Shown: positions 11,480-16,867 of the stretch, piece after piece
How the letters are laid out: every line of letters begins with the position of its first letter
Numbering within the stretch: the first letter of the stretch is position 1
NCBI GenBank assembly: GCA_031263965.1
Contig: JAISES010000239.1
Coordinates: 1-16,867 of the forward strand
DNA: 16,867 nt
Direction of reading: 5' to 3'
Origin: Prevotella sp.
GTDB lineage: Bacteria > Bacteroidota > Bacteroidia > Bacteroidales > Dysgonomonadaceae
Notes under the pieces: model-generated
The model's input: only the letters and a program-made list of their open reading frames with translations
Databases searched by the model: none
Told to the model about the DNA's origin: nothing
Program-made: the position numbers and the translations under genes

Positions 11480-12433
11480 ATGGGATTATTTGACTTCTTC
11501 TCGAAACAAAAGAAAGAAACACTGGATAAGGGACTCGAAAAGACCAAAGAATCGATGTTCTCTAAACTGTCGCGTATCGTAGCCGGAAAATCGAAAGTGG
11601 ATGACGATGTGCTCGACGACCTGGAGGAAGTGCTGATTACATCGGATGTAGGCGTGAACACTACGCTGAAAATAATCGAACGCATCGAAGACCGTGTGGC
11701 CAAAGACAAGTATGTAAGCGCTGAAGAACTTAACACCATCCTCCGCGACGAGATAGCCCGGCTGCTCACCGAAAACAATACAGGAGATGTGGAAGACTTC
11801 TCCCTAGAAGGACAATCCTCTCCGCACGTTATTATGGTAGTGGGCGTAAACGGAGTAGGCAAGACGACAACAATAGGCAAGCTGGCCAATCAGTTCAAGA
11901 AAGCAGGAAAATCTGTCTACCTCGGTGCTGCCGATACATTCCGCGCCGCAGCCGTAGAACAATTGGTTATCTGGGGCGAGCGCGTAGGCGTGCCTGTCGT
12001 AAAACAGCCGATGGGTTCCGACCCTGCATCCGTGGCGTTCGATACACTTAGTTCTGCCAAATCGAACAATGCCGATGTAGTTATCATCGACACTGCCGGC
12101 CGTCTCCACAACAAAGTAGGATTGATGAACGAGCTGACCAAGATAAAAAACGTAATGAATAAGATCGTCCCCGGCGCTCCGCACGAAGTACTCCTTGTGC
12201 TCGACGGCTCTACCGGGCAAAACGCATTTGAACAGGCAACCCAGTTTACTGCCGCAACGGATGTAACGGCGCTGGCCATCACCAAGCTCGATGGGACGGC
12301 CAAGGGCGGCGTTGTGATAGGTATTTCAGACCAGTTTAAAATCCCCGTAAAATATATAGGACTGGGAGAAGGTATCGACGACTTGCAGGTATTCCGCCGC
12401 AAAGAGTTTGTCGATAGTCTGTTTGGAGAGTGA
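11480..12433 (+). CDS. ftsY: Signal recognition particle receptor FtsY
   Basis: A 317-residue SRP-type GTPase. A short amphipathic N-terminus (MGLFDFFSKQKK) replaces the long acidic A domain of the E. coli protein; such short forms are usual outside the proteobacteria. The four-helix N domain spans about 20-105. The G domain shows the P-loop GVNGVGKTT (122-130), DTFRAAA (152-158), DTAGR (204-208) and TKLDGTAKGG (268-277), then the closing GLGEGIDDLQVF. FtsY receives ribosome-SRP complexes at the inner membrane for co-translational insertion. It lies 6 bp before rimO, so the two are very likely cotranscribed. The complete set of G motifs makes this call very firm. Confidence 0.97.
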   Translation: MGLFDFFSKQKKETLDKGLEKTKESMFSKLSRIVAGKSKVDDDVLDDLEEVLITSDVGVNTTLKIIERIEDRVAKDKYVSAEELNTILRDEIARLLTENNTGDVEDFSLEGQSSPHVIMVVGVNGVGKTTTIGKLANQFKKAGKSVYLGAADTFRAAAVEQLVIWGERVGVPVVKQPMGSDPASVAFDTLSSAKSNNADVVIIDTAGRLHNKVGLMNELTKIKNVMNKIVPGAPHEVLLVLDGSTGQNAFEQATQFTAATDVTALAITKLDGTAKGGVVIGISDQFKIPVKYIGLGEGIDDLQVFRRKEFVDSLFGE

Positions 12434-12439
12434 AATTAA

Positions 12440-13738
12440 ATGAAAAAAAACAGAATAGACGTTATAACGCTCGGATGCTCCAAAAATCTGGTCGATTCCG
12501 AGTTGCTCATGAAACAACTTTTAGCTAACGGCTACACCGTAAAGCACGACCCCGACAAGTCGGAAGGAGAAATAGTTGTTATCAATACCTGTGGATTTAT
12601 AGGCGATGCCAAAGAAGAATCGATCAATATGATCCTCGAATTTGCCGAAGCCAAGAAAGAACGCAAACTAAATAAACTGTTTGTAATGGGTTGCCTTACC
12701 GAAAGGTACATGGACGAACTAAGGACGGAAATACCCGAAGTAGATAATTTTTACGGCAAATTCGGATGGAGGGCGCTGATCTCCGACCTGGGCAAGTCTT
12801 TCAAACAAGACCTTGCGCTTGAACGCAGCATCACCACGCCGAAGCATTATGCCTATCTCAAAATATCGGAAGGATGCAACCGCACATGCTCTTACTGCTC
12901 TATCCCTATCATGACCGGCAAGCACCAGTCGCGCCCGATAGAGGAAATAGAGGAAGAAGTACGCCATCTAGCAACTGCGGGGGTAAAAGAATTTCAGGTA
13001 ATAGCACAGGACTTGTCGTTCTACGGGCTCGACAATTATAAGACGGCTAAATTGCCCGGACTCATCGAACGTATAGCCAAGATACCCGGCGTGGAATGGA
13101 TTCGCCTGCATTATGCCTATCCCGCTCATTTTCCGTACGACCTGTTGCGCGTAATGCGCGAAAACGACAACGTATGTAAATACCTCGATATAGCCTTGCA
13201 GCACATCAGCGACAACATGCTGGACAAGATGCGCCGCAATATTTCCAAAGAGCAAACATACGGCCTGATAGAGCGCATCAGGGAAGAAGTGCCCGGAATA
13301 CACCTGCGCACAACGCTGATGGTGGGACACCCCGGCGAAACCCAAAAAGATTTTGACGAACTGCTCCGGTTTGTAAAAGATATACGTTTCGAACGTATGG
13401 GGGCTTTCCCTTATTCGCATGAGGACGGAACATATGCTTACGACCATTATAAAGACAGCATTTCCGATGCCGTGAAGCAAGAGCGCATGGACGAGCTGAT
13501 GGCTGTACAGGAACGTATCGCCCTCGAAATAAACGAAGAGAAAATAGGAAAAACCCTCAAAGTGATTATCGACAGGGAGGATGCCGGTTATTATATCGGC
13601 CGCACCGAGTACGATTCGCCCGAAGTTGATCCCGAAGTATTGGTAAAGAAAAATAAAATTCTTAATATTGGAGAATATTACGATGTTCGCATTACCGGTG
13701 CGCACCCGTTTGACCTTTTAGGAGAAATAAGCTGTTAG
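12440..13738 (+). CDS. rimO: Ribosomal protein S12 methylthiotransferase RimO
   Basis: A 432-residue radical-SAM methylthiotransferase. The N-terminal UPF0004 domain carries the three cluster cysteines C13 (LGCSKNLVDSE), C51 (NTCGFIGDAKEES) and C85 (GCLTERY). The radical-SAM cluster motif is CNRTCSYC with C146, C150 and C153. The C-terminal TRAM domain covers about 370-432, ending AHPFDLLGEI. The GCSKNLVDSE and EGCNRTCSYCSIP forms point to RimO and not MiaB. RimO adds a methylthio group to the conserved aspartate of ribosomal protein uS12. Pairing with ftsY and the nearby ribosomal protein operon suits a translation-related cluster. Confidence 0.96.
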   Translation: MKKNRIDVITLGCSKNLVDSELLMKQLLANGYTVKHDPDKSEGEIVVINTCGFIGDAKEESINMILEFAEAKKERKLNKLFVMGCLTERYMDELRTEIPEVDNFYGKFGWRALISDLGKSFKQDLALERSITTPKHYAYLKISEGCNRTCSYCSIPIMTGKHQSRPIEEIEEEVRHLATAGVKEFQVIAQDLSFYGLDNYKTAKLPGLIERIAKIPGVEWIRLHYAYPAHFPYDLLRVMRENDNVCKYLDIALQHISDNMLDKMRRNISKEQTYGLIERIREEVPGIHLRTTLMVGHPGETQKDFDELLRFVKDIRFERMGAFPYSHEDGTYAYDHYKDSISDAVKQERMDELMAVQERIALEINEEKIGKTLKVIIDREDAGYYIGRTEYDSPEVDPEVLVKKNKILNIGEYYDVRITGAHPFDLLGEISC

Positions 13739-13834: not shown

Positions 13835-14125
13835 ATGACAAATCAGGAACTAGTGGCTACCCTAGCCAAACGTTTAGACTGGACACAGCGTCAGGCATCT
13901 GACGCGCTGGAGTCGGCAGTATCTGTTATCAGCAGCAATCTGGGAGAAGGCAATACTATTAATATACAAGGCTTTGGCCAGTTCGAAACAAAGAAAAAAG
14001 GGGAACGCATATCGGTAAATCCAGTGTCGAAACAACGTTTCCTTGTTCCGCCTAAAATAACGCCGGCTTTTCGTCCCGGCCAGAGTATAAAAGATAACCT
14101 TAAAAAACTGGAGATCAATGGATGA
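13835..14125 (+). CDS. HU-family DNA-binding protein
   Basis: A 96-residue HU/IHF-fold protein. The helical N-terminus (TNQELVATLAKRLDWTQRQA) is followed by the saddle motif GFGQFETKKKGERISVNP and the arm returning through KITPAFRPGQSIKD. The arm carries Pro63 at the place where HU and IHF insert a proline into DNA, so it should bend DNA in the usual way. Family length is about 90, so it is complete. Its last 8 bases overlap the start of the next gene, which encodes a second HU domain fused to a membrane anchor and LysM; the two are likely coupled in translation and might heterodimerise. Confidence 0.93.
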   Translation: MTNQELVATLAKRLDWTQRQASDALESAVSVISSNLGEGNTINIQGFGQFETKKKGERISVNPVSKQRFLVPPKITPAFRPGQSIKDNLKKLEING

Positions 14126-15449
14126 ACGTCTCAGCCTTCAGGATTTAATAGATCTTCTGGTTAAAAAACAGGGAATAACCAGGAAAGACGCGGAAGCTTT
14201 CTTGCGGGAGTTTATTGCTGTAGTTACGGAAAATATAGAGGCTAATGAGCCTGTAAAAATTAAAGACTTCGGTACTTTCAAACCGGTAAAAGTAAACGCA
14301 CGCAAGAGTGTGGATGTAAATACCGGAGAGACTATCGAGATAGCCGCGCATTACAAGCTAAGCTTCAATCCCGATAGATTGTTGAAAGAGGCTATAAACC
14401 GTCCGTTTGCACACTTCGAGAGTGTTGTGCTTGAGGAAGGCGTGACTTTTGATAATATAGAAAGCGAAATTGAGGAAGAAAAAGGCGGGGAGGTTGAAGA
14501 AGATGCAACCATAGAAGAAGAAATTACCGGATATATTGCAGTAGAATCGCCAAAGGCCGGCATGTCCGAAGAAGAGGTCGTGGAAGAGCTTGCAGGCGAA
14601 GCCGTTGAGCCTGAACCCGAAAAGGAAGCAGAAAAATCAGGACAGGAAGCCGCACCTCCTGATGACATCATAAGTAAGATAGAAGAAGAGGCTGCATTAC
14701 GCAATGTAAATATAGAAGATTTTCTCGTGGCACTACGGGAAGATGATAAGGAAGAAAAGACTTTAGCAGGCAAAGCGGCTGAAGATGAACCAGGATTTGA
14801 GTATGAAGCCGACGGACTTGTTTACGAAGATACAGCGCCTGAGAGAAAAGGCATACGCAAACGTTATATCACTCTTGCATTCTTCATTTTCCTTATTATA
14901 GCCGGATTTGTTGCCGGAGGATTGTACTTTCAGGAGATAGCCGCGTATCTGACCCAAGGCTCGTCCGGCAGTGACAATAATATGGCAATAGCCGTAGAAC
15001 CTCAGGCTATGGTTACTGTTGCAGATAGTCTTGTGCAAGAGCAGGATACAATATCAGATTCGCAAGCTCCGAATCCTTTGTTGCAAGACCGCGGCAGGGA
15101 TATGCAAGCTCCGCCGCCATCGCCACAGGTAAAACAGGCTGAGACAGTAACCCCTCAGACATCTGTCAATGCACCACTAGGTGTAGAAACTATACAGCCC
15201 GGGCATACATTGCGGAATATAGCATTGAAATATTACGGAAATAAATCTTTCTGGGTGTACATTTACGAAGAAAATAAGGGCAAAATAAAGAATATTAATA
15301 ATGTACCCATAGGCACAAAACTCACGATCCCAGCCCCTGCAAAATACGGTATCGATCCACAGGATAAAGCATCTGTAACGAAAGCGAGGGCGCAGGAAGA
15401 AGTTTTATTCAAACGCGCAGATATTACCCCCGCTCGCGCAGACTTGTAG
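14118..15449 (+). CDS. HU domain - membrane helix - LysM fusion protein
   Basis: A 443-residue protein with three distinct parts. Residues 1-95 form an HU/IHF-like domain (LQDLIDLLVKKQGITRKDAE, VKIKDFGTFKPVKVNARKS, NPDRLLKEAIN); the proline normally found at the arm tip is replaced by the segment VNTGETIE. Residues 100-245 are a strongly acidic, low-complexity linker. Basic residues RKR at 247-249 precede one membrane helix (about 250-270), so by the positive-inside rule the HU part is cytoplasmic. After a Pro/Gln-rich periplasmic stretch, residues 356-407 are a LysM domain (ETIQPGHTLRNIALKYYG, WVYIYEENK, IPIGTKLTIP-like ending), which in general binds peptidoglycan. The layout suggests a tether between DNA and cell wall. 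The last eight or so residues are encoded by a hairpin-rich repeat (15427-15520) that also provides the stop. Confidence 0.9.
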   Translation: MDERLSLQDLIDLLVKKQGITRKDAEAFLREFIAVVTENIEANEPVKIKDFGTFKPVKVNARKSVDVNTGETIEIAAHYKLSFNPDRLLKEAINRPFAHFESVVLEEGVTFDNIESEIEEEKGGEVEEDATIEEEITGYIAVESPKAGMSEEEVVEELAGEAVEPEPEKEAEKSGQEAAPPDDIISKIEEEAALRNVNIEDFLVALREDDKEEKTLAGKAAEDEPGFEYEADGLVYEDTAPERKGIRKRYITLAFFIFLIIAGFVAGGLYFQEIAAYLTQGSSGSDNNMAIAVEPQAMVTVADSLVQEQDTISDSQAPNPLLQDRGRDMQAPPPSPQVKQAETVTPQTSVNAPLGVETIQPGHTLRNIALKYYGNKSFWVYIYEENKGKIKNINNVPIGTKLTIPAPAKYGIDPQDKASVTKARAQEEVLFKRADITPARADL

Positions 15450-15520
15450 TCTGTGCGTTGCGCAGCAAAAAAGGATTGCTCTTCGAGCAAGACACGGACA
15501 AATGTCCGTGCCAGCGGGGG
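15427..15520. repeat. 94-bp multi-hairpin repeat bounded by CCCCCGCT/AGCGGGGG
   Basis: Outer arms CCCCCGCT (15427-15434) and AGCGGGGG (15513-15520) are perfect inverted repeats. Inside are three hairpins: CAGACT-TGT-AGTCTG (15439-15453), TTGCTC-TTC-GAGCAA (15476-15490) and CACGGACA-AA-TGTCCGTG (15493-15510). The first contains the stop codon of the HU-LysM gene. The repeat is much more GC-rich than its surroundings and looks inserted at the gene's 3' end. Confidence 0.75.
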
Positions 15521-15566
15521 ACTGTTCACTGTTCACTGATTTTCTGACACAGCCTCCTTTTTGTTT

Positions 15567-16867
15567 TTATTTTTCCTTGCTTAAAGGGCGGTATTTATTT
15601 AATAATTCTTCGAAACGGAGATCTTGGCGGAGGTTGTCGAGATCGGGTTCAGCCTCAAAATATTTCCTTGTACATTCTCTGTTTTGCAAAGCTTTTTCAA
15701 ACCACTCGAGTGCTTCGTCTTTTTCATCCAAAAGAGAATAAAGACACGCTAGATTATATACGCCATTCGTATTGTCTAATGAATAAACTTTCAAAAGCTT
15801 TTCTTTTATTACATATTGATCTTCTTTTACACTTCCTCTTAAATTTGCCAGATTGAATAACGCATACCCCCAGTTGTTGTATGCAACAGCATAATCTTCT
15901 TTGATTTGTGTGGCTTTTTCATACTTTTCAAAGCTTACTTCAAACAGCTTTTCATCCCCCTTTAGTTTTGCCAAATCGGACAATGCGTTTCCCCAGTTGT
16001 TGTAAGCAACAGCATAATCTTCTTTGATTTGTGTGGCTTTTTCATACTTCTCAAAGCTTGCTTCAAACAGCTTTTCATCACCTTTTAGTTGTGCCAAATC
16101 GTACAATGCGTTTCCCCAGTTGTTGTAAGCAACAGCATAATCTTCTTTGATTTGTGTGGCTTTTTCATACTTCTCAAAGCTTGCTTCAAAAAGCTTTTCA
16201 TCACCTTTTAGTTGTGCCAAATCGGACAATGCGTTTCCCCAGTTGTAGTAAACAACAGCATCGTTTTCATTAATTTGAATGGCTTTTTCATACTTCTCTA
16301 AGCTTGCTTCAAACAACTTTTCATCACCTTTTAGTTTTGCCAAATAGGCCAATGCACTTCCCCAGTTGTAGTAAGCATCAGCATTATTTTTATCAATTTG
16401 AGTGGCTTCTTTATACTTCTCAAAGCTTGCTTCAAAAAGTTTTTCATCCTCTTTTAGTTTTGCCAAATCGGACAATGCGGTTCCCCAGTTATTGTAAGCA
16501 GCAGCATAATCTTCTTTGAGTTGAATGGCTTTTTCATACTTTTCGAAGCTTGCTTCAAACAGCTTTTCATCCCCCTTTAGTTTTGCCAAATTGTACAATG
16601 CATTTCCCCAGTTGTAGTAAACAACAGCATCGTTTTCATTAATTTGAATGGCTTTTTCATACTTCTCTAAGCTTACTTCAAACAGCTTTTCATCCCCCTT
16701 TAGTTTTGCCAAATCGGACAATGCGTTTCCCCAGTTGTTGTAAGCAACAGCATCATCGTCTTTGATTTGTGTGGCTTTTTCATACTTCTCAAAGCTTGCT
16801 TCAAACAGCTTTTCATCACCTTTTAGTTGTGCCAAATCGTACAATGCGTTTCCCCAGTTGTTGTAAG
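15567..16867 (-). CDS. Tetratricopeptide-repeat protein with 41-residue units (partial, N-terminus outside window)
   Basis: The visible 433 residues start at the window edge and end at TAA 15569-15567; no true start codon is seen. Nine units of the type YNNWGNALSDLAKLKGDEKL plus FEASFEKYEKATQIKEDYAVA repeat with a period of 41. They keep the TPR core (W, G, A/L, Y..A, A..Y) but carry a seven-residue insert KGDEKLF between the two helices. The last unit degenerates (YALFNLANLRGS), followed by a standard TPR (VYNLACLYSLLDEKDEALEW) and the usual bacterial TPR ending LDNLRQDLRFEELLNKY. TPR arrays bind protein partners; no enzymatic domain is visible. The N-terminus, where a signal peptide or effector domain might lie, is missing. 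Confidence 0.9.
   Translation of the reverse strand, partial: YNNWGNALYDLAQLKGDEKLFEASFEKYEKATQIKDDDAVAYNNWGNALSDLAKLKGDEKLFEVSLEKYEKAIQINENDAVVYYNWGNALYNLAKLKGDEKLFEASFEKYEKAIQLKEDYAAAYNNWGTALSDLAKLKEDEKLFEASFEKYKEATQIDKNNADAYYNWGSALAYLAKLKGDEKLFEASLEKYEKAIQINENDAVVYYNWGNALSDLAQLKGDEKLFEASFEKYEKATQIKEDYAVAYNNWGNALYDLAQLKGDEKLFEASFEKYEKATQIKEDYAVAYNNWGNALSDLAKLKGDEKLFEVSFEKYEKATQIKEDYAVAYNNWGYALFNLANLRGSVKEDQYVIKEKLLKVYSLDNTNGVYNLACLYSLLDEKDEALEWFEKALQNRECTRKYFEAEPDLDNLRQDLRFEELLNKYRPLSKEK
15868..16867 (-). repeat. Tandem 123-bp DNA repeat array inside the TPR gene
   Basis: The block beginning CCCCAGTTGTTGTAAGCAAC recurs with period 123 bp (15868, 15991, 16114 and so on) to the window edge. 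Several copies are almost identical in nucleotide sequence, including third codon positions, so the array was recently expanded or is homogenised by recombination. Confidence 0.85.

Follow-up and report, generated by a model that had tools for sequence, protein, structure and literature searches.

A 16,867-nucleotide stretch of DNA (the window) carries a gene whose product, HU2, joins an HU domain through a single membrane helix to a divergent LysM domain. This protein forms a unit with HU1, a free HU/IHF-like partner encoded immediately upstream (Table 1). Both the architecture of HU2-TM-LysM and its pairing with HU1 are firm. The explanation that we place first, and to which we attach about as much belief as doubt, is an IHF-like HU1-HU2 heterodimer that ties DNA to the envelope through one subunit anchored in both the membrane and the wall. 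To our knowledge, how chromosomes are placed or held in Bacteroidota is poorly known; a direct candidate for a link between chromosome and envelope, testable with short constructs, is a conserved HU pair that has one subunit in the membrane and wall.

Architecture, pairing and distribution

The Pfam scan assigned PF00216 (cut-off 22.4) to both proteins, with 80.1 bits (E=1.5e-22) for HU2 and 80.2 bits for HU1, and the same profile was matched by 71/71 A2 members at E<=0.01. An earlier, sequence-only reading of HU2 had proposed an N-terminal HU-type domain, an acidic linker, one membrane helix preceded by RKR and a C-terminal LysM domain, and each of these parts was recovered. None of the 81 protein-family members (the window and the best 80 of 146 confirmed loci) has a second hydrophobic segment; the helices of two of them, L020 and L022, lie slightly below the hydrophobicity threshold of 1.6. 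Basic residues are more numerous N-terminal than C-terminal of the helix in 75 of the 81, equal in six and fewer in none. The single hydrophobic segment and this bias lead to the prediction, in agreement with the topology first proposed, that the positive side faces inwards, with HU in the cytoplasm and LysM in the periplasm.

Table 1. Features of the HU1-HU2 locus in the window
Feature	Position	Strand	Remarks
ftsY homologue	11480..12433	+	SRP54-type GTPase
rimO homologue	12440..13738	+	radical SAM, UPF0004, TRAM
HU1 gene	13835..14125	+	96 aa; free HU/IHF-like partner; arm ERISVNPVSKQR, proline kept
HU2-TM-LysM gene	14118..15449	+	443 aa
HU domain of HU2	14139..14399	+	aa 8-94; intercalating Pro replaced by Val
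Acidic linker	14418..14831	+	aa 101-238, net charge -39, mostly low-confidence; predicted cytoplasmic
Single membrane helix	14868..14924	+	aa 251-269; RKGIRKRY immediately N-terminal; without long T run
Predicted periplasmic linker	14925..15176	+	84 aa
Divergent LysM domain	15180..15341	+	aa 355-408; family signature FWVYIYEEN
Conserved C-terminal extension KYGID...S...A	15342..15416	+	predicted helix aa 417-433

With Pfam alone, the LysM domain of HU2 falls short of detection (PF01476, 13.9 bits against a curated cut-off of 20.9), yet the LysM profile of the family matches the LysM of Kbp (E=5.2e-9), and the AlphaFold model has a predicted LysM fold at 1.2-1.6 Å from that domain. The nearest solved LysMs are those of Kbp and of contractile-baseplate proteins. 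Helix and LysM, with invariant residues, are retained across the aligned Bacteroidales members.

The HU-LysM protein had been regarded as a lone HU, and this view had to be revised, as it is half of a conserved two-subunit unit with HU1. The 3' end of HU1 overlaps the start of HU2 by 8 bases, the pair is kept in many Bacteroidales (gut-type bacteria), and in several lineages HU1 and HU2 are joined as a single protein. Sequence evidence establishes the domains, how closely the two genes are paired, their natural fusions and the asymmetry in proline described below. The predicted structure of one natural fusion aligns with single-chain IHF, and this fusion is predicted to be an IHF-like pseudo-dimer. 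Heterodimerization of HU1 and HU2 is likely, presumably through direct contact.

The gene order in the window is ftsY-rimO-HU1-HU2, the first two being genes that we take to be ftsY and rimO. Among the best 80 of 146 loci, ftsY and rimO are upstream in 11, a MoxR-type ATPase or DUF58 gene is downstream on the same strand in 37 (33 of 35 moxR distances are within 456 bases), and neither context is present in 34, loci cut by contig ends being scored as misses. The joined order rimO-HU1-HU2-moxR, which is taken as ancestral, occurs in L034, L066, L149 and partly L150, with ftsY before and DUF58 after it where read. Pfam confirms MoxR-type AAA, DUF58 and BatA/VWA genes after the HU pair of L066 (6589-10547); in L150, what is presumably a transposase-like gene lies between the pair and genes of the MoxR-DUF58-BatA type. 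Beyond the pair in the window, a dispersed repeat of ~95-105 bases (15425-15530), with 40 matches in the window's genome (40 of 47 candidates scored), supplies the final few codons and the stop of HU2. It is followed on the minus strand by a gene for a long TPR protein (15567-16865), with closely similar ~41-residue repeats, that runs past the window edge.

The LysM profile was matched in 7/295 class genomes (E<=1e-10), 39/247 order genomes (E<=1e-15) and 73/81 genomes of the window's own family (E<=1e-10). The HU2 profile was matched in 34/247 order genomes (E<=1e-20), in open frames of 313-726 aa for 33 of the 34 (the exception, in G521, has 156). The union of both profile sets places the HU-LysM kind in 45/247 order genomes. 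This conservation argues for a real function of HU2-TM-LysM. The best 80 of the 146 confirmed loci were found partly via the LysM pattern FWVYIYEE, so that the presence of LysM in this 80-locus set is not independent.

Another kind of protein, HU-HU-TM-SPOR, was followed through PF18175, which scores above its cut-off in 193/247 order genomes and 213/295 class genomes. A scan of nine PF18175 ORFs taken from the class survey gave SPOR in nine, PF18175 in nine and PF18174 in eight. On the window proteins PF18175 stays below the cut-off of 35 (HU2, 16.9 bits; HU1, 21.9 bits), and the Pfam scan (E<=1) found SPOR absent from the window HU2, which has LysM at its C-terminus instead. The expectation that the LysM and SPOR kinds would exclude each other was rejected, as PF18175 is present in 37 of the 45 HU-LysM genomes (E<=1e-5). 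It exceeds its cut-off in 32 of the 45, always away from the pair (positions compared by eye). With both kinds in one genome at separate places, HU-HU-TM-SPOR is thus a parallel system, not a replacement. Weak PF18175 matches on HU-sized frames (92-104 aa) and on the window HU1 are unfit to count as the SPOR kind. In the window's genome (82.7% complete) PF18175 was matched nowhere beyond HU1, and its congener G313 has one match; no loss is claimed.

Arm residues, charge and the function of the pair

The intercalating proline, noted early on as missing from the HU arm of HU2, is indeed replaced by valine in the window; this residue is customary in the HU/IHF superfamily but does not strictly define it. 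Among the best 80 of 146 confirmed loci, proline occupies this column in 71/77 HU1 and 0/78 HU2 proteins, the latter having Val (62), Ile (4), a gap (9) or another residue (3); L059, L064 and L083 were left out of both counts, and L061 also of that of HU1. In the same set the HU1 arm has its full length of 33 residues in 76/77, and the median net charge of the first 95 residues is +7 for HU1 and 0 for HU2. From this asymmetry in proline and charge, free HU1 resembles a DNA binder and anchored HU2 a modified partner. In four Dysgonomonas genomes PF00216 gave 13 matches apart from those of the pair, and five of the 10 read by eye are devoid of the proline. Stand-alone HUs can thus also lack it, and its loss alone does not prove that DNA binding is lost.

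As the basic, proline-bearing subunit, HU1 would face the DNA. The single helix of HU2 would bring the dimer to the inner membrane, and its periplasmic LysM would extend the link to the wall. For the lineage of the window, such a dimer would most likely bind DNA via one intercalating arm, not two, and a DNA segment would thereby be tied to the envelope. Such a DNA-to-wall tether is plausible as the leading function for this lineage, whose arms are full length. We infer DNA binding by the window-type pair as well as wall binding and a role in chromosome placement; wall binding is put forward with caution, because the LysM subtype is nearest to those of Kbp and baseplate proteins, for which we saw no sign of it. 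The conserved proline asymmetry offers a clean mutational test.

The HU2 arm is truncated in 10/78 proteins of the best 80 of 146 loci, and nine of these 10 have net charges of -5 to -13 (L032, L047, L054, L057, L061, L072, L076, L078 and L080). Eight HU1 partners of the nine acidic HU2 proteins were measured, seven of which have charges between -3 and +3. HU1 is without the proline in four truncated-arm loci (L032, L047, L054 and L072). In genus g330, which belongs to the window's own family, the HU1 proline is lost in the readable loci and HU2 is a remnant in the loci read. Helix and LysM are retained where the HU arms are eroded. In these truncated-arm, acidic lineages DNA binding has probably been lost while helix and LysM stay, and the HU part may hold proteins there, not DNA. 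A universal DNA-wall tether is therefore unlikely, since some relatives without the anchored arm are strongly acidic and have kept helix and LysM.

The main rival to the tether is that the HU pair serves as a protein-protein adaptor, through which a partner from the cytoplasm would dock on a membrane protein anchored in the wall, perhaps in connection with the MoxR/DUF58/BatA neighbours. Microtubule and gliding-machine chains are among the top structural matches listed for the fused form, and this similarity of a predicted model suggests that a tandem HU could act as a protein adaptor. Such a role has reportedly been proposed for the CCDC81 clade. However, HU1 mostly keeps its full arm (76/77), its proline (71/77) and its basic charge (median +7), all of which would be dispensable for an adaptor. 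We consider the adaptor possible, and the tether the better candidate for the window's lineage.

Rather unlikely, in our view, is that the LysM, rather than holding the wall, is a Kbp-like module for another ligand or a structural piece, the protein being a membrane sensor that acts on DNA via HU; the identity of the nearest solved LysMs and the conserved, family-specific KYGID extension after the LysM are consistent with this. That HU2 is an ordinary HU paralogue with an incidental tail and no wall-related role is very improbable: the same genus has stand-alone HUs, so that other HUs are available for packaging, but the invariant residues of helix and LysM are kept and the LysM part is present in 73/81 genomes of the family.

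A conserved T run in the helix codons of sister genera

Of the 73 loci of the window's own family (Dysgonomonadaceae), 59 were retrieved and 57 parsed, two remaining unparsed. The helix codons end in a T run in 38/38 parsed loci of genera g158, g324, g325, g329, g330, g331 and g332, a group defined after the run had been noticed (L144-L147, L151-L165, L167-L172, L175, L177, L179-L184, L187-L188, L193 and L196-L197). This run is T10 in 35 of them, with single loci at T11, T9 and T8. In the remaining 19 parsed loci and in the window the runs measure 3-6, so that the window's own HU2 gene is without a long T run at the helix, and the 80-locus set has runs of 1-6. Only two further A/T runs of at least nine, both A9, occur in the 111,985 bases surveyed. 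Relative to the HU-helix part, the LysM is in frame in 26 of the 38 loci and at +1 in 12, and both alternative frames stop 0-25 codons past the run in all 38. A conserved A/T run of at least nine and a conserved product read in a different frame thus occur together in the sister genera.

At conserved Phe positions of rimO, 33 T-run loci use mixed codons (TTT in 21-79% per column, with 0/8 columns uniform), which argues against simple codon bias as the cause of the uniform T run. On a rimO tree of 51 of the 57 loci, built by a quick method, the run state needs two changes, and for the LysM frame the minimum is three, two of them forced by the starred branches; L157, which has an out-of-frame LysM and belongs to a different genus, is not included in this tree. 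Genus g328, within the clade on the same tree, speaks against T10, as its T run is only 4-5. No comparable T run was found at the hydrophobic segment of PF18175 genes (14 proteins, runs of 2-7; L112, a 24-aa ORF, was excluded). Among 119 listed proteins examined, 12 have at most 240 aa and end soon after the helix; FFF is present there in only four of the 12, so truncations other than T10 exist, which likewise counts against it.

We see the case for and against the following reading as evenly poised. In this clade of Dysgonomonadaceae the T10 would be selected on the DNA itself and would cause RNA polymerase slippage, yielding the HU membrane protein with and without LysM and so setting what fraction of HU dimers connects the nucleoid with membrane and wall. 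The product with LysM would be anchored to the wall, and that without it membrane-bound and wall-free. Transcriptional slippage is favoured because the run stays at 10 in both frame states, one T11 apart. Replication-based phase variation and sequencing error at the T run are both disfavoured by this same observation, namely a length of 10 whether the species is in frame or out of frame (with one out-of-frame T11). Classic -1 ribosomal frameshifting was rejected as a misfit with the +1 (or -2) offset, and +1 ribosomal frameshifting is a possible source of the second form.

Transcriptional slippage at A9/T9 runs is described in PMC1088944 for dnaX of Thermus and for IS elements, and nine A or T is given there as the length at which a sizeable proportion of bacterial genomes shows selection against slippage. 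mxiE is a slippage case according to a title cited in PMC3711429. The portions consulted of PMC3711429 and PMC5009743 contain no LysM slippage case, and neither the HU-LysM pair nor the T10 run was found described among the matches listed in the open-licence literature, which is no proof of absence. If slippage is the correct reading, the T10 represents a rare case of programmed slippage affecting a cellular structural gene, which can be checked from RNA reads alone.

Comparison with known systems

The predicted fold of the HU1-HU2 pair is that of IHF alpha/beta and the HU heterodimers; a natural fusion aligns with single-chain IHF, and HU1 is basic and proline-bearing. Unlike in those dimers, one subunit is without the proline and has a membrane helix and a LysM. 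HU2 and Kbp/YgaU have the LysM domain in common. In Kbp, in contrast, the LysM is joined to BON, without HU and without a membrane helix.

HU-CCDC81_bac proteins of Bacteroidia (PF18174, PF18175 and SPOR) similarly have two HUs and a single hydrophobic segment, and end in a wall-type domain at the C-terminus. The system described here differs in having LysM instead of SPOR, usually two genes rather than one, and arms that are mostly full length. In Cell Cycle in 2017, Burroughs et al. reportedly predicted that the bacterial CCDC81 clade has a role in chromosome partition.

Finally, the sister genera share with the slippage genes (dnaX, IS elements and mxiE) a conserved slippage-prone homopolymer and a predicted second product in another frame. 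In contrast with those genes, the run is located at the end of a membrane helix, where the presence or absence of a wall-type domain would depend on it.
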